Origin: Hondaea fermentalgiana
Lineage: Eukaryota > Sar > Bigyra > Thraustochytrida > Thraustochytriidae
Assembly (NCBI GenBank): GCA_014084085.1
Contig: NPFB01000040.1
Location: forward strand, 645,373-709,372
DNA length: 64,000 nt
Direction: 5' to 3'
Notes under the pieces: model-generated
The model's database searches: none
Told to the model about the DNA's origin: nothing
What the model saw: only the letters and a program-made list of their open reading frames with translations
Shown: positions 27,364 through 41,974 of the stretch, one piece after another
Layout of the letters: each line of letters starts with the position of its first letter
Position numbering within the stretch: the first letter of the stretch is position 1
Made by a program: the position numbers and the translations under genes

Positions 27364-30300
27364 TCATTCATTATCTTTCACGAGAACCATGCGGGATCCG
27401 CTGACGAGAGCGCTGTCTCTGCGAAATTCAAGGTCCGCTTCGGGAACAATCTTCGTGGGCACGAGACGATTCCGTTTCGGGCCCTCTGAAGCACGTAAGA
27501 GACGGGTTTCGGCTGCGAGTTCGTCAAAAGAATACGCTTTGGCCACCTCGTCGCTCTCGCCCATCATTTCAGGCATCCATTGCCCGGCACGCTTCATCGT
27601 ATACAGAGAGTCCGAGCCCGAAGTCGCAAGAGGTACTCTCCTCATCGAGTGCAAAATCTCCTTGTCCGTCGCAGATGAGCGCACAAGGGGGCCGTTGGCT
27701 CGAGAAGAGGCATCCGGGCTTCGCGTCAACCACTCCTTGAGCGTTTCGAGTTCGCTTGCGGCCTCATCCGTGTACATGTGTCGCTTGAGCTCATTGTTGA
27801 GAGCGTATTCTTGCTTTTTTTGGTGCTGGAAGGACTCCAACATCAGTGCCTGGAAGAGGGAGAGGAGCACGAAGATCGAAAAGAAGAGATAAAAACCAAG
27901 CAACAAGAATCCTGTTGTCCCTGTGAGTAAACTTGGAAGCGCACTTGCGTGAAAGGACTTCCACGGCGCTCCACCAAACATGGACCCGAAAAAGGTCATT
28001 GCCGCCATCGTCGGACTCTTGAACTCGGGTGCTGAGGATTGCATGATGGCATATGCGGACATGGAGAACGCCACAAAATTCCCAAGGAACGAAAGTACAA
28101 TAATCTCCACCTCTCTGCTCACACCCCCAAGTGTTCGCATAATCACGGCGAAAATGTCGTATCTCGCGCCGCCAAGCTTGGCCATGAGCCCTACACATGT
28201 AAAGAACATGGCTGCCACCAGACACGTGTGCGACGCGTTGCCGGCATCAAAGAGATACTCAAAGGGGTCGTGCGCATATTGGGATTCTTCTTGGGAACGC
28301 GCGTGCCACGCGTTTCCAGATTCCACAACACCCTCCAAGTATTCGCGCTGTCGGGCATTGTGCTCAGCATGCAGCACAAGACCTACCAAAGATAAGACCA
28401 CTCGCGACATCATGCTGGCCGACCGAAGCGAGCGCATGTAGCGCCCGTGCGTGTACCACGCAGCCACAACATACTCAATAACACAGAGAGACCAAGCGAT
28501 CCAAAGGAGCCCCGTGGCCCAATGTTGGTGCTCGAGTTCTATTGCTGAGGTGCGAACGACAACCTCGTTGCGCACTGGACCCATGTGAGCCAGAGCGCGA
28601 ATGACTGTTACCGTGGGCGGTTTGGTCTGCGCAGAAAGGATCACAAGTTGAAGCGCGAGCCGGCTCGGTTGCAGGTGGTCGGGTTGCTCTCCCATTTCCT
28701 GGAACACATTTGCATTGGCCATTTGGCTCGCGCTCCCTGTATAATTGTTTGCTTGCCAAAGCATCGTGCGACGGGAAGAAAAGTTGTCAATGTGTGCCAG
28801 GCCGCTCGTCGTTGCTCGCGAATCGCGAAAGCAAGGAATCGAATCAATCTGTGTGAGATTCTCGCCCTGAAATCCTGCAATGCTCGCAGCGCGAGCGCGA
28901 AAGTTTCGTTCCGACACTGCGTCTGCGGTGCAATCCACGGCTTCCGGAACCGAAACCAATAAGGTGGGGTAGTCGACGAGCGCAAAGTGTCGACCGAGCC
29001 AAGGGAATCCAGGCGCAAGCATCGAATCCTCAAGCCAGCGGGCAAAGTCGGAAATGGTGCTAAGATGATCGAATTGACTCTGCGTGAAAGTGTCCTGAAT
29101 CCCGGACGTGAGATCAAGTGTCGAGGTCACACCCAGAGAAACCTCTAGAACGAGTGCAATTACCATGAACACGTGCACAAACTTGGAAAGCAACTTGAGT
29201 CCTCGTGACAGCGGCGTCATAGGAGCATGCGAGAGCCGTGCGGCAGCCCCACTGAGCTGCGCAAGAAGACGGAGAGCCCGACGTTGCGCTTCGCGCTGAC
29301 TGATGTTGCCAACAACATCAATGGGTTTATTCGGATCGTATACCACAGGATCGTAGTTTTGACTGTGATTTCCGCCAAAACCGTATGTGAGGCTCCCGAA
29401 ACCACCAATGCTCCCTGTCGGAAAGACGTTGGAGCTCTGACTCGGATCAAAGGGTCGCAACTTGACGATGCTTTGATTGTCGTCAAGAGCATTGTCAATG
29501 TCGTAGACGTTGAGAGTGCGAGCCGACCTGGAAAACGCAGACGAGGCCGTGGTCCGTTCTACGATTGGCTGTTTTGATGGAGCAAAAAGACCCGCAGGGG
29601 TGGCAGAGCCTGCTCGTGGAATAACCTCAATGCGTTTTTTCTCGAGCAGCCTGTCCAGCAAGTAGCGCGCCTTGATATCGTGGCAATCTTGCACGAGATC
29701 TTTAATAATCGTGACGCTCTCTCCGACGCTGAGGTGTGCGACCTTGCGGTCGTCCTTTTGTCTTTCATATTCCCTGGAGAAGCGGTTCACAAAATGTTCG
29801 AGAAGCCTACCTCGAAGGTTGATGTTACCGCAATAGGTGTCCTTGTGCTGGCATAGAGCGTGTGCGCTGTCGAGAAAGCGGGCGCTCCCATTGACATTGT
29901 AGATGTAACCCTCGTCCAAGAGTTGTTGCGCAATCTGTATGGCTCTTTCGCGCGGATAAACGTTGCGCACTGACACGCACCAGTCCACAAGCTCCGATGC
30001 AACAAAGCAGTGCTTGATGAGCTTTCCGTACGCGATTCTGTCCTTGAGCTTTGGGCCCGAGTTGTCGCGTAGCTGGCGATGCAGCAGATTGAGGTCCGAA
30101 GGCGCCACGAGCAAGTTCACGGTATAAGGGTGCGCCACCCGGAAGAAGAGATTCCGGCTGTTCTCGAAGGGTTTAAAGCGCTGCGTTCCGTGCGAAATGA
30201 GGCCTCGTGTCCACATTTCTTCGCAGATGAGCACGGCGAGGTGCTCCGTTGTTCCGTACGTTTTCATGATCCACTGCACAAGTTCGCTCGCAACAAAGCA

Positions 30301-30480
30301 TGCCTTGACGACATACCGCCCGACCCTGCGATCAGCAATATCGACCCCGCCATTTCTCTGCATGCGGATCGCAAGTTGTTGGATCTCGCATTGTACTTTA
30401 TCGCGCTCCTCCAGACGCTTGCGCACCGCTACCTCCTCCTCGTTGCGGGCCTCGATGCATATACCACGCAGGTTCTTCAT
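27364..30480 (-). CDS. DEP-DEP-polycystin (PKD2-like) cation channel
   Basis: A 1038-residue membrane protein. The N-terminus has two DEP domains (about 33-117, with VVKACFVASELVQWIM; about 128-215, with KLIKHCFVASELVDWCV), the fold that recruits proteins to membranes or GPCRs. A linker leads to TM1 (about 430-455), a large extracytosolic loop of polycystin type (about 455-650; DFARWLEDSMLAPGFPW), then TM2-TM5 (about 655, 690, 755, 795), a pore stretch (TFFGSMFGGAPW, about 828-840) and a last TM (GFYLFFSIFVLLSLFQALML, about 855-880). The cytosolic tail is Ser/Glu-rich. This pattern matches the PKD channel family (TRPP), calcium-permeable channels of cilia and internal membranes. The start used is the first ATG; only non-ATG codons lie in frame just before it. 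Confidence 0.85.
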   Translation of the reverse strand: MKNLRGICIEARNEEEVAVRKRLEERDKVQCEIQQLAIRMQRNGGVDIADRRVGRYVVKACFVASELVQWIMKTYGTTEHLAVLICEEMWTRGLISHGTQRFKPFENSRNLFFRVAHPYTVNLLVAPSDLNLLHRQLRDNSGPKLKDRIAYGKLIKHCFVASELVDWCVSVRNVYPRERAIQIAQQLLDEGYIYNVNGSARFLDSAHALCQHKDTYCGNINLRGRLLEHFVNRFSREYERQKDDRKVAHLSVGESVTIIKDLVQDCHDIKARYLLDRLLEKKRIEVIPRAGSATPAGLFAPSKQPIVERTTASSAFSRSARTLNVYDIDNALDDNQSIVKLRPFDPSQSSNVFPTGSIGGFGSLTYGFGGNHSQNYDPVVYDPNKPIDVVGNISQREAQRRALRLLAQLSGAAARLSHAPMTPLSRGLKLLSKFVHVFMVIALVLEVSLGVTSTLDLTSGIQDTFTQSQFDHLSTISDFARWLEDSMLAPGFPWLGRHFALVDYPTLLVSVPEAVDCTADAVSERNFRARAASIAGFQGENLTQIDSIPCFRDSRATTSGLAHIDNFSSRRTMLWQANNYTGSASQMANANVFQEMGEQPDHLQPSRLALQLVILSAQTKPPTVTVIRALAHMGPVRNEVVVRTSAIELEHQHWATGLLWIAWSLCVIEYVVAAWYTHGRYMRSLRSASMMSRVVLSLVGLVLHAEHNARQREYLEGVVESGNAWHARSQEESQYAHDPFEYLFDAGNASHTCLVAAMFFTCVGLMAKLGGARYDIFAVIMRTLGGVSREVEIIVLSFLGNFVAFSMSAYAIMQSSAPEFKSPTMAAMTFFGSMFGGAPWKSFHASALPSLLTGTTGFLLLGFYLFFSIFVLLSLFQALMLESFQHQKKQEYALNNELKRHMYTDEAASELETLKEWLTRSPDASSRANGPLVRSSATDKEILHSMRRVPLATSGSDSLYTMKRAGQWMPEMMGESDEVAKAYSFDELAAETRLLRASEGPKRNRLVPTKIVPEADLEFRRDSALVSGSRMVLVKDNE

Positions 30481-31615
30481 GGGGCCAATCAATCGAGCGA
30501 TCGATCGATCAATCTCGCGGCACCGGCTGCGGCGCCCGAGCCGAAGCCGCTTTGCTCTCCAATGCTTTCAAGTTGCTCTGCAATGCTTTGCTCTCCCATG
30601 CTTCCCTCTACTAAGGTGCGCTTTCTGGGGGTTCGGTCAGCAGAGCTTTTGCGGCGAGCCGTTGATGCGAGTCGTGCCCGGCCGCGGCGGCTCCTCGATC
30701 CGGATCGAGAGCGCTTGTGCGGTAGAGGGAGGAAGAAGGGATGGCCGTTCCACCGCATTTGATACCACCGGTCCGCAGGAGCACACAATCAATGATTGAA
30801 AATAGGTCATGGCGGTTGGTCGGTCATCTTCGAGTTGTGTGGGGTCGACGCGCGGCCGTCAGCGGTGCTGCCGTCAAGGTTTTTGTTATAGGTCGAATAG
30901 AGACAGCGCAGATGCACCCGTTGCATCGCATCGCATCGCATCGCAGCCACAGGTTCGGTCGGTCGGGCGGTTGGTCACCTTTCGCATCGATTGGGAATGA
31001 CGTGGGTGTGTGATATGTATGGTATAACGAAAAACGTGCACCGGATTTGCCCGATGCAGCAGCGCAAGTTGAGAAGCGTCCGCGACGGTCACTGTAAGAA
31101 GAAAGACCTTCGCGGCGAAATCTTATCTCTTACGCGTCGATTCTCGGAACGCGGCTTGGCTCGCTCGCTGTCTAGCTGGCTATGGCTGACTCACAGGCAA
31201 GTTCCTGTCACAATAATCTTCATATTCGTAGACCTCAGCCTACGTCCGCGCAAAAACCCTTTCCTCAGGACTCTAGCTCGCTCGCTCGCTCGCTCGCTCG
31301 CTCGCCCGCTCAGCACCGGTCAGCCAGTTGTCGCTGATCATGGCGCCGTCACAACGATCACAACAATCAGACCTCTGCATTCGGTTAGGTTTGGGGTTAG
31401 GTTAGGTTCGCTGGGCCTGCGGCTCCGCTGCCACTGCAGCGGCAGAAGTAGAAGAGCCAAGCAGCAGCACGCGTGCAGGAGGCGAGCGAGCGAGTGTGAG
31501 TGCGACGCGGGCGGGCCAGGCGAGGGAGGGCGGCAGCGAGCTAACTAACCCGGGGACCTCGGAAACCCTTGGCTTGGACAAAGGTCGGCGCAGGGAGAGC
31601 GAAACGAAAGGCACC
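30481..31615. promoter_or_regulatory. Divergent region between the DEP-polycystin channel and NDUFA8-like genes
   Basis: 1.1 kb with no credible gene. It includes GATC-type palindromic units right at the channel start (about 30494-30512), a GCATC run (about 30922-30943), a GCTC run (31277-31308) and the telomere-like GGTTAGG cluster (31383-31408) about 210 bases before the NDUFA8-like start. It presumably carries both promoters. Confidence 0.5.
31383..31408 (+). promoter_or_regulatory. Telomere-like GGTTAGG cluster
   Basis: Three GGTTAGG units within 26 bases, with a TTTGGG variant between the first two. A two-unit copy lies at 52280-52291, also upstream of a start codon (that of the 711-residue protein). 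Similar telo-box motifs act as promoter elements of housekeeping genes in other eukaryotes; that role here is inference. Confidence 0.35.
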
Positions 31616-32851: not shown

Positions 32852-35800
32852 ATGAGGCCCGCAATGGACGTGGTGAACCGCATACTCTGGGACGAAGGTC
32901 TCCCCAATCACGCCTTTGTCGTCGGATACCTCGATCGCTTTGTGGGGGTCAAGGAAAAAGCAATCTCGGCTTTCAATTTCCATGATGATTTCGGCAGCAT
33001 CAGCCACACCGAGACAGCCATTCCACAAACGCGCATCCAATATCTCAAATATGTGCACCAAGATGGATCGCGTCTCGTTTGGGATCGACGTCCAGAGAGT
33101 CGCGCCGACGATTTTTTTGGCAGCTTCCCACGCGGAAATGGAACCAACATTGAGCAGATCATGGCTCGACATCCGCCCCGGAATACACCTGACGAGAATG
33201 CTGCCTCGGCACACCCAGAACGCGCAATCAATGGCTTGAACGCTGGGAACCCAGACAGGCCAAACTTTTTTGTATGCTTTCGTGTGCTGTCGCCGCGGAT
33301 CGTGAAAAGGGCTCAAGAGATGCAGCTGCTCTCCCCAGAGGCTCACGAAGGTGCGCTCCCAACACAGCGTTTGCACTTTACAATGCTCACGCTTCGCCTT
33401 CGAAACGAACTCGAGCTGGAACGCGCACGCGAAGCATTGGCAACCTTTGACATTGGCAAATCTCTATCGTCTGATCAGCCCATTCATGTGCGAGGCGTGG
33501 ACTGCTTTCGAGATCGCGTCTTGCATGCGCGAGTTGATCCCGCTGATGGAAGTTTGCGAGCGCTCCTCCATCTTCACGAAGCCCTTCGCAACCACATGAT
33601 TGCAGCACTTGGCGTCCAGGCCTGGAAAGGACAAGACCAGCAGTCGTTTGTCCCACACATGACCATCACCAAGTGCAATCGTGAAATGTCCCGCCGGGGC
33701 GCCTTTTTTCATCCAAGCCTTTACAGCCCTCTCGCAGCGCAGAGCCTAGGTAAAGTGCGGGTTCGCGCGCTCCATCTTTGCCGTATGGCTGCGCCCGCTG
33801 ACCCGAGCGAATTTTACGAGACCTTTGGCTCGAGCATACCGAACCTTTCCCGCTGGAGCGAAGACGACGAAACCCTCGGCACGGACGTCATCTCTTGGGA
33901 AGACGCCCAGCAAGGAAAAGCAAAAGCGCTGCGCGCGCGGGGACGCCAGGTGCTCAAAAAGCGCGGAACACTTGTTGTGGTGCGAGGCTTCGCATGCGCC
34001 AGTAAAGACGCTTTCATGCAGAGCGAGTATCCGCAAGGAAGACGCTGTTCAAGCTCTTCGGCCTTTCGGGCTGCCATAACGTCGGAAGCTGCTGACCAAG
34101 AGGACGCCACAATTCTTTTGTGCCAAGATTTTGGGCAAATCTGGGAGTACGAGGGAGCCCTTCAGCTTGCGAAAGCAGCTGGCTTTGCATGTCAGGTGGT
34201 CCAACCTTGCCGCGGGTACAAGGCGTGGTTTGAAGAGGCCTTGAAAAGCGGCCATTCAATGAAGAAAGCTCTCCAGGTCGCAAAGCTCGCGCTTTCCTTT
34301 GAGCACGACCCGGCTTCGCTCTGGTTCCCTTTGCGCACGGCCGGTCCAATGCCTGCACCGCAGGAATTGTACGTTTTCGACTTTGATCACACGCTTTTCG
34401 ATACGGCAGATCCCGTCGGCCCATGGCGGGGACGTGGTGGACTCTTTGTTTCGCTTCCGCTTTCGCTGCAAGACGAGGCAACAGTCAGCCCCGGGCCGGC
34501 TTTGGCATCCTGGAAACGTGCTCTTGAGCGTCCGCGCGCGACCATGGTGGTCCTTACGGGTCGCAAAGAAATACTAGAGCCACAAGTACGGTCAATACTC
34601 GATCGTTACCAGCTTGCACCCGATGCACTTCTGATGAAACCCGCAGACACCTTTCAATCGGCGTCATTTAAAGCCACCAAGGTGCAAGAGCTCAGCGAGC
34701 TCGGTTTCTCCTCCGTCTCATTTTTCGATGATGACCCTCTCGCACGCGAGGCAGTTTGCCAGAGAATGGCAGGCTGCCCTGCCTTCCGCAGCATTGACGC
34801 GAACAGTTTGCGCAGAGAGGATGCGGGTCGAGCCGCCGAAAGTTCACACAATTTGCAAGAGGCCGCACTCTGCGCGGTCACTCGTCAACTGCACGAGCTT
34901 GTTTCCAAGGCTCACCCCGAGATGCTCCAAGTCGACCCCGAGGCGCTCGCGATTGTCTTTGGCTCGACCATGTACGGCCGCGAGTCAAACGACCTCGATG
35001 TGTGTCTCATTTGCCCCCACGTCGATGTGGCCGGCGGTCTTTTGCAAACCCTCTATGACCGTCTCCGACGCGGATCAATTTTGCGCAGGGATCACAGCGA
35101 AGAGATGCGCGTCCTTGACTCTCATCTTGCCAAGCGATCGAAGTGCCCGCGCATCGCAATGCACGTGCAGCACATTGTTAGTGGTGAGACCTTTGACGTG
35201 GACATTGTCCTGGCTATGTTGGACCCAAGTCGCGCCGTGGAAAGATTTTGCAATGCGCCAAGTACTCACACTTATGACAAGACAATGCTTGAGGAATGGC
35301 GATCAATCTGCGTCGACAAGGCCAGTGAACGGAGCCTTGAAGGCGCGATCTTCGGCGCCGGTCTTATCGCGCGCACCGAGACCGCCTGTGGTGCTCTTGG
35401 ACCGCGTCTCTTGCGTGCGCTCGTGGACAAGGCTGATGAGCGTCTCGTGGCGCATGGCCTTCGTGGACGACATTTACAAATGATACGCACATTTCAGATT
35501 GCCATGCTTGTGGTGACCTTTTTGGAGGATCCACAGACCGCGGTAAAAGGACTCGATGAAGTTGACGCGCTCTTTTCAGAGTTCTCAAACTATCTCGCAA
35601 TCTCTGTGACCCAAGAATCCTGGATGCAGGTGCTCGTCGGCTTGCATGACCCGGAATTCGCAGAGTGCCACGCAATGTACCTTCCTCGGCTCATTGCAGC
35701 TTTTCGAGGGGATCCCATCCAGGTCATTTGCCCGTACCTTGCATATGCTCATTTTCAGATCGAGGTCCGTACGCGGAGGCCATGGAAGGCGCGTCTCCAG

Positions 35801-36115
35801 CTCGAAGCTGGATTTCCGCGAGTTTTGCGCTCCCTCTCAGCGCGCGGAAGCATTTTTGTTTCAGGTGCTGGCCAGCTTCCATTTCTGCGCGAAGCGACAC
35901 CTTTTGATGGTTTCTTCTGCGCAGTCATCGACCTATACCTCGCTGTTTCTTCAGATCATCGTGACGACGGTAGTGGTGCTTCGGCGCTTCGGCTTCTCGA
36001 GCAGGAGGTCTCGCAGCTCCGCTTGCCCGAGAGCACATTTGCACGGGTTTTTCTCTCCGAACAGGTGAACAAGGTCTTCTCCGCGACTTCATGGTGCGAT
36101 CCAACTGAGTTTTAG
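32852..36115 (+). CDS. Swiss-army-knife RNA-repair protein: MJ1316 + 2H + kinase-like + HAD + nucleotidyltransferase
   Basis: A 1087-residue single-exon protein with five recognisable modules. (1) MJ1316 RNA cyclic-end recognition domain, about 6-80 (ILWDEGLPNHAFVVGYLDRF, IPQTRIQYLKY, LVWDRR). (2) 2H phosphoesterase, about 140-315, with both HxT motifs (H175-F-T177, H269-M-T271), which act on 2',3'-cyclic or 2'-5' phosphates. (3) A segment at about 371-470 resembling T4-PNK/N4BP2L P-loop kinases but with the Walker A loop decayed to GFACASKD. (4) HAD phosphatase, about 505-650, with DFDHT (D510, D512), LTG (T569) and FFDDD (D626-D628). (5) Poly(A)-polymerase-like nucleotidyltransferase, about 670-1087, with FGS (704-705), D714-L-D716 and third Asp in VDIV (D784). 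All three intact enzymes keep their catalytic residues. It is expected to recognise and heal broken RNA 3' ends. No ligase module is present. Confidence 0.85.
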   Translation: MRPAMDVVNRILWDEGLPNHAFVVGYLDRFVGVKEKAISAFNFHDDFGSISHTETAIPQTRIQYLKYVHQDGSRLVWDRRPESRADDFFGSFPRGNGTNIEQIMARHPPRNTPDENAASAHPERAINGLNAGNPDRPNFFVCFRVLSPRIVKRAQEMQLLSPEAHEGALPTQRLHFTMLTLRLRNELELERAREALATFDIGKSLSSDQPIHVRGVDCFRDRVLHARVDPADGSLRALLHLHEALRNHMIAALGVQAWKGQDQQSFVPHMTITKCNREMSRRGAFFHPSLYSPLAAQSLGKVRVRALHLCRMAAPADPSEFYETFGSSIPNLSRWSEDDETLGTDVISWEDAQQGKAKALRARGRQVLKKRGTLVVVRGFACASKDAFMQSEYPQGRRCSSSSAFRAAITSEAADQEDATILLCQDFGQIWEYEGALQLAKAAGFACQVVQPCRGYKAWFEEALKSGHSMKKALQVAKLALSFEHDPASLWFPLRTAGPMPAPQELYVFDFDHTLFDTADPVGPWRGRGGLFVSLPLSLQDEATVSPGPALASWKRALERPRATMVVLTGRKEILEPQVRSILDRYQLAPDALLMKPADTFQSASFKATKVQELSELGFSSVSFFDDDPLAREAVCQRMAGCPAFRSIDANSLRREDAGRAAESSHNLQEAALCAVTRQLHELVSKAHPEMLQVDPEALAIVFGSTMYGRESNDLDVCLICPHVDVAGGLLQTLYDRLRRGSILRRDHSEEMRVLDSHLAKRSKCPRIAMHVQHIVSGETFDVDIVLAMLDPSRAVERFCNAPSTHTYDKTMLEEWRSICVDKASERSLEGAIFGAGLIARTETACGALGPRLLRALVDKADERLVAHGLRGRHLQMIRTFQIAMLVVTFLEDPQTAVKGLDEVDALFSEFSNYLAISVTQESWMQVLVGLHDPEFAECHAMYLPRLIAAFRGDPIQVICPYLAYAHFQIEVRTRRPWKARLQLEAGFPRVLRSLSARGSIFVSGAGQLPFLREATPFDGFFCAVIDLYLAVSSDHRDDGSGASALRLLEQEVSQLRLPESTFARVFLSEQVNKVFSATSWCDPTEF

Positions 36116-36628
36116 GAGAGTAAAAAAAGAATGATGATGGTCTCGTCCTGACGGTTCTAACTGACATGTGAAAGGACGTACTTGAGGGAGAGAGGAAAAC
36201 CTTGTCCGAGAGAGAAAGACAAAAATGAGCAAGAACTGCAATTCCTCTTCGCGAGAAGTGATTACATGTTTCCACAAGAGCGACATTTTGAACAGCGTTC
36301 CATCTAGTACTTTTTCAGGCGTCACCTTTGTCTTGTAGTTGCATATGCACCTGGGCGCGCGCTTGTTCGTCTCGCAGTCGGCAAGCAGGCCAACAACACC
36401 ATGACTCTTGTTGTGCTATACACACTATAAATGAAGGAGGGAATGCGGGGAACGTGCCTCTTGGCGGGTGGTCGCGAGGCAATTCTGCATCGAGACGAAC
36501 CCGATTCCGCTCGCGGTGGTGGCTGCGCTCGCTGGCGAGGCCGGGCGAGGCGCTGCGAAGGCAGAGTCGGAGCAGCGGGAAAGCGTCTGCAAAGGGCGGA
36601 GTCAAGTCTAGTCCCCGCGACGGACAAG
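36116..36628. other. Spacer between RNA-repair and DRS1 genes
   Basis: 513 bases, same-strand genes on both sides. A TATA-like CTATAAAT sits near 36424, about 200 bases before the DRS1 start. Nothing else recognised. Confidence 0.45.
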
Positions 36629-39600
36629 ATGGTCCGCGAGGTGGCGGGCTTCGTGCTCACCATCGAGAGCGACGACGAGCGGGACTCCGAGGAGGAGGAG
36701 GAGGTCAAGAAGACCAAGGCCGGCAGCAGCAAGAGCAAGGTCGACGGTAAGACCAAGAGCGTGAAGTCAAAGGCTGACAAGAGCAAGGCGCAGTCTGCCA
36801 AGGTCGCGGAAACTGAGAAAAAGAAGCAAAGCAAGGAGAACAAGACTGCGAGCGAGGAGGCCGTCGCCGAGACCAAGTCCAAGACTTCGCGGCGCCTGCC
36901 TGCTAGCCTTTCATCCCTCGTGTACTCTGCCGGACCTAAGACTACGTCAAAGGAGCGAAACGGGTCAAAACAGGAGCAGACCAACGGGGTAAAGAAGCAA
37001 AAGGACGAAGCCAAGACGAAGGAACCCGAAGACGAGGAAGAGGCTGCAGGTGGCAAGAGCGACGACGAGGAGGAGGAGGACGATGACGATGAGGAAGCCG
37101 GAGTCGAGGCCGATGGGCCGGCGCTTCGCGGAAGCATGTTTCTTGATGATCTTGACGATGACGATGACGAGGAGGACGACGAGGAGGAAGTGATGCCCGA
37201 GTCCTGGGACTTTACCAGCGCAATCGAGCGAATTCGCTCCAAGGAAGACCCTTCGCAGCAAATGACAACCTCACTCAGTGATAAAATCCAACGGGCACTT
37301 CGCGCTCGGGCGCTCCGACAGGCTAAGGAGGAGCTTGCGCAGGAAGGCAAACTCCGGGGCAAGGCTTCCAAGAAGGCTGTCGCACAGAACAGCAATGAGG
37401 AAGACGCCAGCGACGACGAGGAAGACGATGCCAGCGATGAGGAGGAAAACAGCGACGCCGAGGGCAATGCCGCGGACGATGCCGCAATGCGCGCCCGCGC
37501 CGACGAGATCCAGGCGCGTGCGGCGGCAGTCGCCGCTGCGGAGCTTGCGAGAACTTCCCGTGCCGAAGGTGAAGACGACAGCGACGATGACGACGATGAC
37601 GAGGGCGCGGCAGGCGAGGATTTCTCGCGCGAAATGGGTACGAATTCCGAAGTGCTTGAAAAGGTGCGCGCGCGCACGAAGAAACGCATGGAGCAAATGG
37701 AAAAGGAAGCGAAAAAGAACAAGGTTCAGGCAGCGGCCATCGAGACGTTTGCGCAGCTGAACTTGTCGCGGCCGCTGATTCGAGCGACGCAGGTGCTCAA
37801 GTTTGAGAAGCCGACGCCCATTCAGGCGCGCTCGATTCCGTACGCAATGGCAGGTCGGGATATTTGCGGCAGCGCAGCGACCGGTTCGGGCAAAACAGCC
37901 GCCTTTGTGCTCCCCGTCCTGGAGCGTCTCCTCTACAGACCGAAGCGACTCAAGGCAACTCGTGTGCTCATGGTGACCCCGACGCGCGAGCTGACGCAGC
38001 AGGTGCTGAGCATGACGGAAGCGCTGGCGCAGTTCACAGACATCACGGCAACGGCGGTGGTAGGCGGTCTGAACATGGACGCGCAGGCACAGGAGCTACG
38101 TGCTCGGCCGGATATTGTGGTGGCAACGCCTGGCCGGCTGATCGATCATGTACTTAACACCAAGTCGGTGGATCTAGACGATGTCGAAATCCTGATTCTC
38201 GATGAGGCCGATCGTCTGCTTGAGCTCGGATTCCACGACGAAGTCATGCAGCTTGTTGATTTCTGTCCCAAGAACCGCCAGACACTGCTCTTTTCGGCAA
38301 CCATGACGACTTCTGTGAATGAGCTTGCGGACCTGAGTCTGCGTCGTCCTATTCGCGTGGAGACAGACCCGCTGTACGATATGGCCAACCGTCTTGTGCA
38401 GGAGTTCGTGCGCATCAAGCCTCAGCGCGAGGGCGATCGGGAAGCAATGTTGCTGGCGCTGTGCAAGCGAAGCTTCACGAGCAAGGTGATCATTTTTTTC
38501 CGGGCCAAGGTGCGTACGCACAGATTCGGGATCCTGTTTGGACTGTTCGGGCTCAAGGCAGCAGAGCTGCATGGCAACCTGACGCAGCGCCAGCGCCTTG
38601 AGTCTCTGCAGCAGTTCCGCGACGGCGAGGTCGACTTTCTTCTTTGTACAGACGTCGCGTCTCGCGGTCTGGACATCAAGGGCGTGGAAGTGGTGATCAA
38701 CTACGAAATGCCGAATGACCTTTCGACTTATGTCCATCGCGTTGGACGTACTGCGCGTGCGGGCCGCGGAGGGCGGGCCGTGACGCTGACAGGCGAGCGC
38801 CAGCGCAAGCTGACAAAGGAGGTCCTGCGTCGCTCGCAGCAGAACGTCAAGAGCCGCACGATCCCGGACAGCGTTGTGGAGGCACTGCGGGAGCGTGTTG
38901 CCGACTACGAAGAGGAAATTGAGGATGTCTTGCGGCAGGAGCGGGTGGAGCGCGAGCTGCGGGGCGCCGAGATGGACGCCAACCGTGCGCAGCGGCGCAT
39001 CGAGAACCGCGAGGAGATCTTTTCCAAGCCGCGCCGCACGTGGTTTCAGTCGCAGCAAGAAAAGGAACTGATTCGGCAGACAGCGCGCGAGAAGATGTTC
39101 GAGGCGGATGCGAAGGCCGAGGACCAGACGCCAGCTGGGCGTGCTCGCGCGCGGCGGCAGGCGCTCAAGGACGCAGAGGCAGCGGCTTCTGGGGAGAAGA
39201 AGGAGAAGAAGCCACACCGACTGACTCGCGCAAAGCGGCGGCGACTCGCCCAGCTCGAGGCCATGGACGCCGCCGCAAATGCAGAAGCCGAGGCTTTTGC
39301 GGATGACGGAGACCGTGATGAAACCAAGCGGGCGCCGAAGAAGCGCGCCTCTGACTATGAAGACATGCTGCGGAAAGATGAATCCAAGGTGGCAGCCTCT
39401 GCGCGCGTGAACAAGCGCAAGCTGCGCGAGCAGGACCAAGAAAAGTATACAACTTCGATTGACGAGTCCGAGGCACTCAAGCAGGAGAAGCGCAAACAGA
39501 AACAGGCACAGAAGCGGGCTCAGGCCGGGGAGACCGGGGAAGACGATAACGCCAAGCGCAAGGCGGATAAACCACTCAAGAAGCGCGTCAAGTTTGGCGG

Positions 39601-39811
39601 CGGTTCGCTGGCAGGATTCGGCTCGGAGCTGGCCCCAGGCGAGGGTCTGAACATGCTCGACGCGCGCACACGCAAGAAGAGCCGGAAGAACTCGGCAATG
39701 GGCGAGGCGCCGATCTTCAAGGAGGCAGATCTGTCCAAGGGTGGTCTTCGTAAGGGCGGCAAGATGGGAAGCAGCAAGTTCAAGTCCAAGAAGAAGTTTA
39801 AGCGTAGGTAA
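36629..39811 (+). CDS. DRS1: DEAD-box RNA helicase DRS1/DDX27
   Basis: A 1060-residue nucleolar helicase for 60S ribosomal subunit assembly. Residues 1-350 are acidic and Lys-rich low complexity. The helicase core (about 373-740) shows the Q motif (FEKPTPIQARSIPYAMAGRD), Walker A AATGSGKT (about 416-423), PTRELTQQ, TPGRLIDH, DEAD (about 525), SAT (about 556), IIFFRAK, DVASRGLDIKGVE and YVHRVGRTARAGRGG (about 703). The long basic tail (about 740-1060) has RRTWFQS and Lys/Arg-rich nucleolar-type stretches typical of DRS1. The start MVREVAGFVLTIESDDE resembles the family N-terminus, so the 66 codons open upstream are treated as leader. With ESF1 it makes two ribosome-assembly factors in the window. 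Confidence 0.93.
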   Translation: MVREVAGFVLTIESDDERDSEEEEEVKKTKAGSSKSKVDGKTKSVKSKADKSKAQSAKVAETEKKKQSKENKTASEEAVAETKSKTSRRLPASLSSLVYSAGPKTTSKERNGSKQEQTNGVKKQKDEAKTKEPEDEEEAAGGKSDDEEEEDDDDEEAGVEADGPALRGSMFLDDLDDDDDEEDDEEEVMPESWDFTSAIERIRSKEDPSQQMTTSLSDKIQRALRARALRQAKEELAQEGKLRGKASKKAVAQNSNEEDASDDEEDDASDEEENSDAEGNAADDAAMRARADEIQARAAAVAAAELARTSRAEGEDDSDDDDDDEGAAGEDFSREMGTNSEVLEKVRARTKKRMEQMEKEAKKNKVQAAAIETFAQLNLSRPLIRATQVLKFEKPTPIQARSIPYAMAGRDICGSAATGSGKTAAFVLPVLERLLYRPKRLKATRVLMVTPTRELTQQVLSMTEALAQFTDITATAVVGGLNMDAQAQELRARPDIVVATPGRLIDHVLNTKSVDLDDVEILILDEADRLLELGFHDEVMQLVDFCPKNRQTLLFSATMTTSVNELADLSLRRPIRVETDPLYDMANRLVQEFVRIKPQREGDREAMLLALCKRSFTSKVIIFFRAKVRTHRFGILFGLFGLKAAELHGNLTQRQRLESLQQFRDGEVDFLLCTDVASRGLDIKGVEVVINYEMPNDLSTYVHRVGRTARAGRGGRAVTLTGERQRKLTKEVLRRSQQNVKSRTIPDSVVEALRERVADYEEEIEDVLRQERVERELRGAEMDANRAQRRIENREEIFSKPRRTWFQSQQEKELIRQTAREKMFEADAKAEDQTPAGRARARRQALKDAEAAASGEKKEKKPHRLTRAKRRRLAQLEAMDAAANAEAEAFADDGDRDETKRAPKKRASDYEDMLRKDESKVAASARVNKRKLREQDQEKYTTSIDESEALKQEKRKQKQAQKRAQAGETGEDDNAKRKADKPLKKRVKFGGGSLAGFGSELAPGEGLNMLDARTRKKSRKNSAMGEAPIFKEADLSKGGLRKGGKMGSSKFKSKKKFKRR

Positions 39812-40854: not shown

Positions 40855-41319
40855 TCAGCACTGGATACCGACGACACCAAAGGCGATGGCAGGGCCGGCG
40901 TTGCCGTTAATCAGGCTCTGCTCCTGGCCACCGAGGCCAAGGTCATCCTCCTGGCTCATGACGGCAATGGCGCGGCCGATGATCGACTGGGGCCCAATGA
41001 GCTTGACGAGCTTGTCGGAGATGCTGACGGTGGCCTTGCCGTCGGCGTCGGCCTCGACGTTGCCGAGGCTGCCGACGTGGCGCTCGTCAGCGTCGGGGCC
41101 GCCGTGGTTCTTGCCGTGCGGGTTGAAGTGCTCGCCGAGCGAGGTCGGGGCGTTGCTCAGGTCGCCGGACACGAGGACGGCGACGCCATGCTTGCCGGGG
41201 GCGAGGCCGGTGATCTCTCCCTGGATCGTGGTCGGCGCCGCCTCGGAGGCCTGCTCGAGCTTGAGGACGCCCTGGATGGCGCCGTCGACGCTGCTCAGCT
41301 TGACGGAGCACTTGGCCAT
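40855..41319 (-). CDS. Cu/Zn superoxide dismutase-fold protein lacking the copper site
   Basis: A 154-residue protein colinear with SOD1 along its whole length (EHFNPHGKNHGGP, DERHVGSLGNVEADADGKA, GRAIAV, DDLGLGG, GNAG, GVVGI). With human SOD1 numbering, offset by one: copper ligands H46, H48 and H120 are Ala47, Leu49 and Met121; bridging H63 is kept (H64); zinc ligands H71 and H80 are kept (H72, H81) but D83 is Ser84; active-site R143 is Ala144; disulfide cysteines C57 and C146 are Pro58 and Phe147. It should therefore not dismutate superoxide and at best binds zinc weakly. There is no signal peptide and no CCS-type metal-binding head. Frame and ends are intact, so it is a maintained protein rather than a pseudogene. 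Role unknown. Confidence 0.87.
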   Translation of the reverse strand: MAKCSVKLSSVDGAIQGVLKLEQASEAAPTTIQGEITGLAPGKHGVAVLVSGDLSNAPTSLGEHFNPHGKNHGGPDADERHVGSLGNVEADADGKATVSISDKLVKLIGPQSIIGRAIAVMSQEDDLGLGGQEQSLINGNAGPAIAFGVVGIQC

Positions 41320-41360
41320 CTTGCTTGCTGCTGTTGCTTCTGTTGCTTGACTGGCTGCTG

Positions 41361-41424
41361 CCTGCTTGCCTGTCTGCTTGCCTGTCTGCCTGCCTGTCTG
41401 CCTGCCTGCCTGCCTGCCTGCCTG
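41361..41424. repeat. TGCC/TGTC tetranucleotide microsatellite
   Basis: About sixteen TGCC/TGTC/TGCT units, ending as pure TGCC, starting about 40 bases upstream of the SOD-like start codon. Confidence 0.9.
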
Positions 41425-41563
41425 CTCGGGGCCGCGGGCTCTCGCTCCTCGACCTGGCCTGGGACCTGCTGCTGCCGCCGCCGCTGCTGCTGCTGCTCTC
41501 CGCGATGTCTGACTGACTGACTGTCTCGTCTCGTCTCGTCTCGTCTCGGGCCTTGCTCGCGCG

Positions 41564-41595
41564 CGATCGATCGATCGATCGATCGATCGATCGTC
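41564..41595. repeat. Self-complementary GATC microsatellite
   Basis: About eight copies of GATC, fully self-complementary and able to form a cruciform, about 245 bases upstream of the SOD-like start codon. Confidence 0.95.
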
Positions 41596-41974
41596 GATCA
41601 ATCGCTCACTCACTCCATACGGCACTCAACCACAATCGATGGGCCTCCGCCCGCCGCCGCCGCAAGTGCGCGTCCCGGCCATTCTTCACTTGCGCGCCGC
41701 TATAAACCACTTGCCGCCGCGGCCGGTAAAAGCGAGCGAGCGGAGGGCGGTGGCCTCCTCGCACGCCGCGGCACTACACCGCACGCACGCCCGCTCTCGC
41801 TGCGATCTGCAGCTGATCTCCGACCCGGCCCGACGCGGGCTCGGGCTCGACGCAGCTGCAGGCAGCGGCCGCGCTTTTCTTCGCCCGTCTGCATGCAGCC
41901 AGCCTCTCGGCCTCGCGGCGCGGAGCACCAATGGCAACAAAAATGCAACAAACGACCCGCCACCGCACCAAGCC

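Follow-up and report, generated by a model that had tools for sequence, protein, structure and literature searches.

A compact, probably kinase-dead Swiss Army Knife protein of Hondaea fermentalgiana as a candidate RNA 3'-end healing enzyme

Swiss Army Knife (SAK) RNA repair proteins, reportedly described by Burroughs and Aravind in 2016, combine in a single chain an MJ1316 domain, a 2H phosphoesterase, a P-loop kinase fold, a HAD phosphatase and a nucleotidyltransferase. The concept is already established and is not new here; the Pfam names carry it, MJ1316 being the 'RNA cyclic group end recognition domain' and the HAD families HAD_SAK_1 and HAD_SAK_2 being those 'in Swiss Army Knife RNA repair proteins'. 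An earlier note on this DNA, made from its letters, had already connected MJ1316 and 'Swiss army knife' HAD families with RNA repair systems. No enzymology of a SAK protein was found in the literature searched, although most subscription papers were outside the reach of that search. A 64,000-nucleotide stretch of the Hondaea fermentalgiana genome (contig NPFB01000040.1, positions 645,373 to 709,372; hereafter the window) carries a gene, at 32852..36115 of its plus strand, whose product, P0001, has these five modules in a reduced form. In P0001 and three relatives the kinase has probably become a pseudokinase, and we consider it reasonably probable that P0001 is a compact SAK protein that heals and extends RNA at the 3' end only. 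The compact, kinase-dead variant is what this analysis adds to the SAK family, and no priority is claimed for it.

Several described systems share parts of this architecture. LENG9 carries an MJ1316 domain and a 2H domain of the AKAP7 type, as P0001 does, and the source name of one relative of P0001 (P0004) is 'Leukocyte receptor cluster member 9'; LENG9 and AKAP7 are not known to have a HAD or transferase domain. Compared with the long SAK forms, P0001 is devoid of the kinase catalytic motifs and of a second 2H domain, which is similar to the CPD domain of tRNA ligases; the R3H domain present in two long forms (P0005 and P0006) and the NUDIX domain of one of them (P0006) are likewise missing. 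The polynucleotide kinase/phosphatases of T4 and other phages (Pnkp) have a HAD phosphatase of the same family as that of P0001, and a published phage polynucleotide kinase is itself annotated with a SAK HAD domain (PMC7765460); P0001 does not have a working-looking kinase, and its HAD domain is one part of a longer chain that also comprises MJ1316, 2H and transferase domains. The bacterial Pnkp1-Rnl-Hen1 system is also devoted to RNA end repair, but it is a three-protein complex that includes a ligase (Rnl) and Hen1 (PMC4411300). In the PDB, Pnkp1 is one of the matches to the kinase region of SAK proteins (2.9e-4 and 1.5e-5), and the compact HAD region matches it very weakly (E 0.1).

The gene for P0001 is a single uninterrupted frame with an ATG start that encodes 1087 residues and ends in a stop codon. 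From the N-terminus, its modules are an MJ1316 domain, a 2H phosphoesterase of the AKAP7 type, the remnant of a P-loop kinase, the HAD phosphatase and a nucleotidyltransferase with a GS/DxD/D signature; the same continuous order is found in three full-length relatives (P0002, P0003 and P0004) that are 29-38% identical to P0001. The assigned start of P0001 is backed by P0002 and P0004, whose first residues coincide with its own, and P0003 is 42 residues longer at its N-terminus. From this shared order it follows that P0001 is one protein, which bears out the five modules in one polypeptide that the earlier note had described; as to its caveat that the modules could belong to separate mRNAs, the continuous order in the relatives speaks against separate genes. 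The compact SAK protein is thus a real, well-conserved, five-module protein, whose modules, with their order and the active-site motifs that are kept or lost, can be read directly from the sequence.

Protein searches recovered 16 distinct proteins at E <= 0.001, P0001 included. The counts of relatives are lower bounds, since each search scored the 7999 or 8000 candidates that shared most words, and the last search missed P0002 and P0003, which were rows of its own query, so that true relatives were lost. Sorted by architecture, the 16 proteins comprise four compact SAK proteins (P0001 to P0004, the last from the dinoflagellate Durusdinium trenchii, by its source name), seven long SAK proteins (P0005 to P0009, P0014 and P0015) and five fungal fusions (P0010 to P0013 from Orbilia/Arthrobotrys, and P0016 from Xylariales, by source name). 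The compact forms have 1,024-1,149 residues versus 1,407-1,921 in the long ones. P0007, P0008 and P0009 are mutually close (branches of 0.02-0.12), so the seven long forms count as roughly five independent ones. The N-termini of P0008 and P0009 are short, and what they retain of MJ1316 is no more than a stub (E about 0.03). In a search for prokaryotic or viral relatives over the whole length, tblastn detected no relative among 595 matches of two short patterns in genome contigs.

The MJ1316 domain, predicted to recognise RNA cyclic ends, spans residues 1-79 (32852..33088; this and the other features of the gene are on the plus strand) and the 2H domain spans residues 137-327 (33260..33832). 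As expected in the earlier note, both have profile matches above the Pfam cut-offs in this one chain (PF04457, E 2e-19, and PF10469, AKAP7_NLS, 5.5e-21), and the same holds for P0002 to P0006. Both 2H motifs that it had pointed out are present, HFT at residues 175-177 (33374..33382) and HMT at residues 269-271 (33656..33664), and the HxT/S pair is kept in 11/11 SAK proteins, compact and long. The PDB matches of this domain are AKAP7/18 and mS64/AKAP7_NLS chains, and it also matches the RNA 2',3'-cyclic phosphodiesterase family TIGR02258 below the family cut-off (1.4e-5). Mammalian AKAP7 degrades 2-5A, and the AKAP7 type of the 2H domain would agree with small nucleotides, for instance messengers similar to 2-5A, as substrates in place of RNA ends, the 2H domain degrading them and the transferase making them; nevertheless, the presence in the same chain of MJ1316 and of a Pnkp-type HAD domain points to polynucleotide ends, and we regard the small-nucleotide role as very improbable.

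The evidence that sets the compact forms apart, and that led us to favour a 3'-end-only enzyme, comes from the kinase segment. A profile of the four compact forms (residues 328-497, 4 rows) aligned with that of five long forms (P0005 to P0009) exactly at the kinase, with an hhalign probability of 93.4 and an E-value of 2.4e-7; the alignment score was 54.8 versus a maximum of 21.3 after shuffling the columns (0/200 shuffles came near), and the probability against the other four modules of the long forms did not exceed 0.9. The P-loop-kinase-like segment that the earlier note had discerned is therefore detectable with the pooled profile, in residues 373-491 of P0001 (33968..34324). From P0001 alone the scan found no Pfam kinase family (E up to 10) and hhalign gave a probability of 2.8, and the compact profile matched single kinases weakly (5.0 for a viral kinase and 0.9 for the PNKP of this same genome). 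The earlier reading needs amending in one respect, as this segment is devoid of a Walker A motif. In an 11-row alignment, the column occupied by RGxPG[SA]GKS in the long forms reads RGFACASKD in P0001 (residues 378-386; 33983..34009), RGMPSVMKS in P0002, RTLKGQAGV in P0003 and RGLGAAAKR in P0004, so that the G4xGK[ST] pattern, as well as the SAD, DNT and lid (R..H) motifs, is present in 7/7 long and 0/4 compact forms. The aspartate of SAD and the arginine of the lid are catalytic in polynucleotide kinases. These replacements make the segment a probable pseudokinase.

A second loss accompanies the first. In 7/7 long forms a pair of HxT motifs marks a second 2H domain, and none of the four compact forms has an HxT pair at the aligned place. 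In the long forms this domain corresponds to tRNA_lig_CPD, above the cut-off in P0005 (1.1e-5), below it in P0006 (8.1e-4) and P0007 (0.0066), and not listed in P0008 and P0009. Among the motifs checked, only those of the 5'-end kinase and of this second 2H domain have been lost, in contrast with the motifs of the first 2H domain, of the HAD phosphatase and of the transferase, each of which is complete in all the SAK proteins.

The HAD phosphatase occupies residues 499-665 (34346..34846), with motif I DFD (D510 and D512; 34379..34387) and the aspartate of motif IV (D627; 34730..34732). The motifs DxDxT, T, K and D, of which the earlier note had indicated the first two, are conserved in 11/11 proteins. 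The SAK-type Pfam match is weaker, as HAD_SAK_1 scores 0.071 in P0001 and 2.2e-4 in P0004, both below the cut-off, and is not listed in P0002 and P0003. Membership in the SAK/Pnkp type was instead reached through the relatives: HAD_SAK_1 is above the cut-off in P0005 and P0006, the compact and long HAD profiles align with a probability of 99.8 (E 1.5e-29), and PHROG 415, 'polynucleotide kinase', matches all four compact HAD domains (1.6e-8 in P0001, and 6.6e-6, 1.1e-4 and 9.9e-8 in the others). A scan of viral contigs yielded 16 loci from 379 stretches, and the matched parts are all within residues 483-717, around the HAD domain. The one of these loci that was read, L006 (4779-6077, plus strand), encodes a HAD domain followed by a kinase, as in bifunctional enzymes that heal ends, and its HAD half is close to that of the SAK proteins (hhalign probability 98.3 with the four-row compact profile, versus 0.1 for its kinase half). 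The phage type was preferred to the eukaryotic PNK3P type, which was rejected since the alignment with the PNK3P domain of this genome had a probability of 1.6 over 9 columns. Other HAD families match below the cut-off (Acid_phosphat_B at 2.9e-5 in P0002 and 2.8e-5 in P0003, and NIF at 0.0017 in P0004), and these matches say that the fold is HAD without indicating a type. Taken by its sequence relatives, the HAD domain belongs with the phage polynucleotide kinase/phosphatases.

The palm of the nucleotidyltransferase covers residues 690-800 (34919..35251) and aligns with that of the long forms with a probability of 98.1 (E 6.9e-14). Its GS ... DLD motif (G704, S705, D714 and D716; 34961..34999) and third catalytic aspartate (D784; 35201..35203) are kept in 11/11 proteins. 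The remainder of the chain (residues 801-1087; 35252..36112) matches the long forms in part: residues 811-955 do so with a probability of 93.9 (E 1.5e-7), and the last 130 residues weakly (probability 19, E 0.0012). No Pfam nucleotidyltransferase or poly(A) polymerase (PAP) family was matched by P0001 with E up to 10, and the whole-protein profiles reached PAP gamma in the PDB at 0.0014 (9 rows) and PAP alpha at 0.059 (11 rows). The earlier note had called this module PAP-like, and its GS and three aspartates hold throughout the family, whereas the kinship with PAP is weak; judged by its motifs, the last module is a pol-beta-type nucleotidyltransferase, probably of a PAP-like kind.

A tree of the 11 SAK proteins, based on 612 shared columns that are filled in 9 or more of the 11 rows and excluding the kinase and the last segment, places the compact and the long forms on the two sides of one branch with a support of 100; within the compact side, branches have supports of 83 and 77. 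This split is consistent with a single loss. Given that a degenerate P-loop must come from an intact one, the compact form would be the derived state.

In the reading that we favour, MJ1316 would dock the RNA end carrying a 2',3'-cyclic phosphate, the AKAP7-type 2H domain would then open the ring, the Pnkp-type HAD phosphatase would strip the remaining phosphate to leave a free 3'-OH, and the nucleotidyltransferase would extend this end with nucleotides. P0001 would leave the 5' side of the break untreated, because the kinase has probably decayed to a pseudokinase and the second 2H domain was lost; the decayed kinase is possibly kept as a scaffold. We infer the reactions, the order of the steps, the RNA substrate and the fate of the end, rebuilt in a tRNA-like manner or tagged for decay, from the domain content. 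The scheme of recognising, opening, dephosphorylating and extending the end with no ligase had been advanced in the earlier note, and as a prediction it fits the modules and the result of a Pfam scan (E up to 10), in which no ATP-dependent or RtcB-type ligase domain was detected in P0001; the use that the note saw for it, against RNA-cutting toxins or oxidative breaks, would be conjectural. Pfam names with '2-5 RNA ligase' refer to the 2H fold, and weak 2'-5' joining of RNA in vitro is a property of some of its members. The same anatomy would serve clean-up instead of repair, with cyclic-phosphate fragments converted to 3'-OH ends and tailed for decay by a 3' exonuclease, given that a healing protein with neither kinase nor ligase leaves fragments that cannot be rejoined; the sequence does not separate this role from rebuilding, and no link to an exosome or exonuclease was searched for. 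We deem clean-up somewhat unlikely.

The strongest indirect support for 3'-end healing and extension by P0001 may come from the convergence with the fungal fusions. These have an N-terminal 2H domain, a PAP_central domain and a C-terminal MJ1316 domain, all above the cut-off in 5/5, together with a stretch of the EEP fold, and a Walker A motif in 0/5. Like P0001, they unite a cyclic-end domain, a 2H domain, a phosphatase-type fold and a 3' nucleotidyltransferase in the absence of a Walker A; they differ from it in the order of the modules, in the unrelated EEP fold and in their clear PAP central domain, and seem to have brought similar 3'-end functions together separately. The EEP motifs are LQE, GDxN and SDH, of which the first is found in 4/5 and the others in 5/5 of the fusions. 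The human EEP protein ANGEL2 removes 2',3'-cyclic phosphate, and if the fungal EEP domain acts in the same way, fungi would have arrived at the same 3'-end pathway with different components.

Several observations weigh against a kinase-dead, 3'-end-only enzyme and its fungal parallel. The lysine of the P-loop is retained in three of the four compact forms (P0001, P0002 and P0004), with even KS in P0002, and the aspartate of DNT in two (P0002 and P0004); in view of these residues, ATP binding may have persisted. The mean identity of the compact forms is lower in the kinase (20.6%) than in MJ1316 (53.3%), 2H (44.4%), HAD (29.4%) or the transferase palm (31.3%), and the same kinase-aligned stretch, which there includes the second 2H domain, reaches 34.6% in four long forms (P0005, P0006, P0014 and P0015), but low identity is a weak proof of decay, as the compact forms are on average 27.5% identical in their last segment and 12.9% in the stretch that precedes the kinase. 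In P0001, two of the five modules fall short of curated thresholds, namely the HAD domain with HAD_SAK_1 and the nucleotidyltransferase, which has no family match. A four-row C-terminal profile (three compact forms and one long) found no polymerase in the PDB with E up to 1, and hhalign against the fungal PAP gave only E 0.01 and a probability of 4, in a test that was uneven, since it missed a certain 2H pair (probability 8.9) and found the MJ1316 pair (99.4). Regarding the fungal proteins, the EEP stretch is above the cut-off in only 2/5, and the first 2H motif of P0010 is HLN when inspected by eye.

The rest of the genome (a 36.0 Mb assembly in 238 contigs) bears on whether P0001 works by itself. 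Its gene is the sole match to MJ1316 in the assembly, and the AKAP7-type 2H domain occurs in this gene and in one other, L003 (643-2367, plus strand, G000:C157), for which Pfam at E 0.001 lists that domain (8.3e-14) and none of another kind. PNK3P was found in two places, and AAA_33 kinases gave at least eight matches in seven frames among the 21 of 58 candidates that were scored. Three of these seven frames were read: one is a PNKP-aprataxin-like fusion by Pfam, and the other two are, by eye, PFK-2/FBPase-2-like and adenylate-kinase-like proteins. The fusion (L032, 2173-5022, plus strand, G000:C14) is a frame of 949 residues with PNKP phosphatase and kinase, HIT/DcpS_C and C2HE zinc-finger domains, as in a PNKP-aprataxin-like protein for DNA end repair, and its kinase has an intact GLPGSGKS. 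Another frame (L004, 640-2559, minus strand, G000:C199:18497-19765) contains tandem Tpt1/KptA RNA 2'-phosphotransferase domains (8.4e-58 and 1.2e-57; 5.1e-118 for the whole protein), each covering nearly the whole family profile. Tpt1/KptA removes a 2'-phosphate and goes with tRNA ligation of the Trl1 type.

The double Tpt1/KptA protein and the intact PNKP-type kinase, the latter fused to aprataxin-like domains, would agree with P0001 being a subunit in a split pathway of repair or splicing, where it would serve the 3' end and a separate kinase and ligase would treat the 5' end and seal; in such a pathway the pseudokinase could serve as a docking surface. On the other hand, neither RtcB nor the PF09414 ligase was found in the genome by searches that match 9/14 and 5/14 control genomes, respectively. 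For PF09511, PF08302, PF08303 and PF17720 the genome gave no match either, but these searches matched 0 control genomes, so the absence is not established and a Trl1-type or RLIG1-type ligase may exist undetected; kinases of the CLP1/GRC3 type were not searched for. We hold the split pathway to be unlikely. It should be considered that 3'-end-only healing, the split pathway and clean-up are not mutually exclusive, as they involve the same chemistry in different roles.

Other genes were observed in the window and elsewhere in the assembly. Downstream of the P0001 gene, on the same strand, the next gene (36431-39811, plus strand) encodes a DEAD-box helicase (DEAD 7.6e-46, Helicase_C 2e-30) with long charged tails; a Cu/Zn superoxide dismutase (2.2e-37) lies at 40855-41625 on the minus strand, in a frame with a low-complexity N-terminal extension; and a minus-strand frame at 27364-30492 has two stretches of DEP domain followed by a sub-threshold ion-channel/polycystin-like region. 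In the assembly, the omega-3 PfaA synthase family has a long partial match (E 1.5e-137, 461.9 bits versus a cut-off of 1010.1); 11/14 control genomes are also matched in this search, with 0 above the cut-off. This match would agree, as weak evidence, with a thraustochytrid-like protist, and the gene content suggests a eukaryote. Pieces of the PfaA-like polyketide/polyunsaturated-fatty-acid-synthase type are present at L024, L026-L028 and L030 (G000:C154 and C161), with an open frame of 5708 residues on C161.

In the usual picture of RNA repair, both ends are healed and then sealed. The compact SAK proteins and the fungal fusions lead us to propose, tentatively and at less than even confidence, that protists and fungi independently built single-chain RNA 3'-end resetters devoid of a 5' kinase and a ligase, and that 3' rebuilding may be an end in itself, the compact SAK lineage having discarded a working Pnkp-type kinase and retained it as a pseudokinase. 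A lineage that keeps its 3'-end active sites without the 5' kinase would be a natural experiment, and the compact form offers a smaller protein in which the SAK idea could be assayed, with the fungal fusions as a second test; 3' healing and extension may be of value by themselves.

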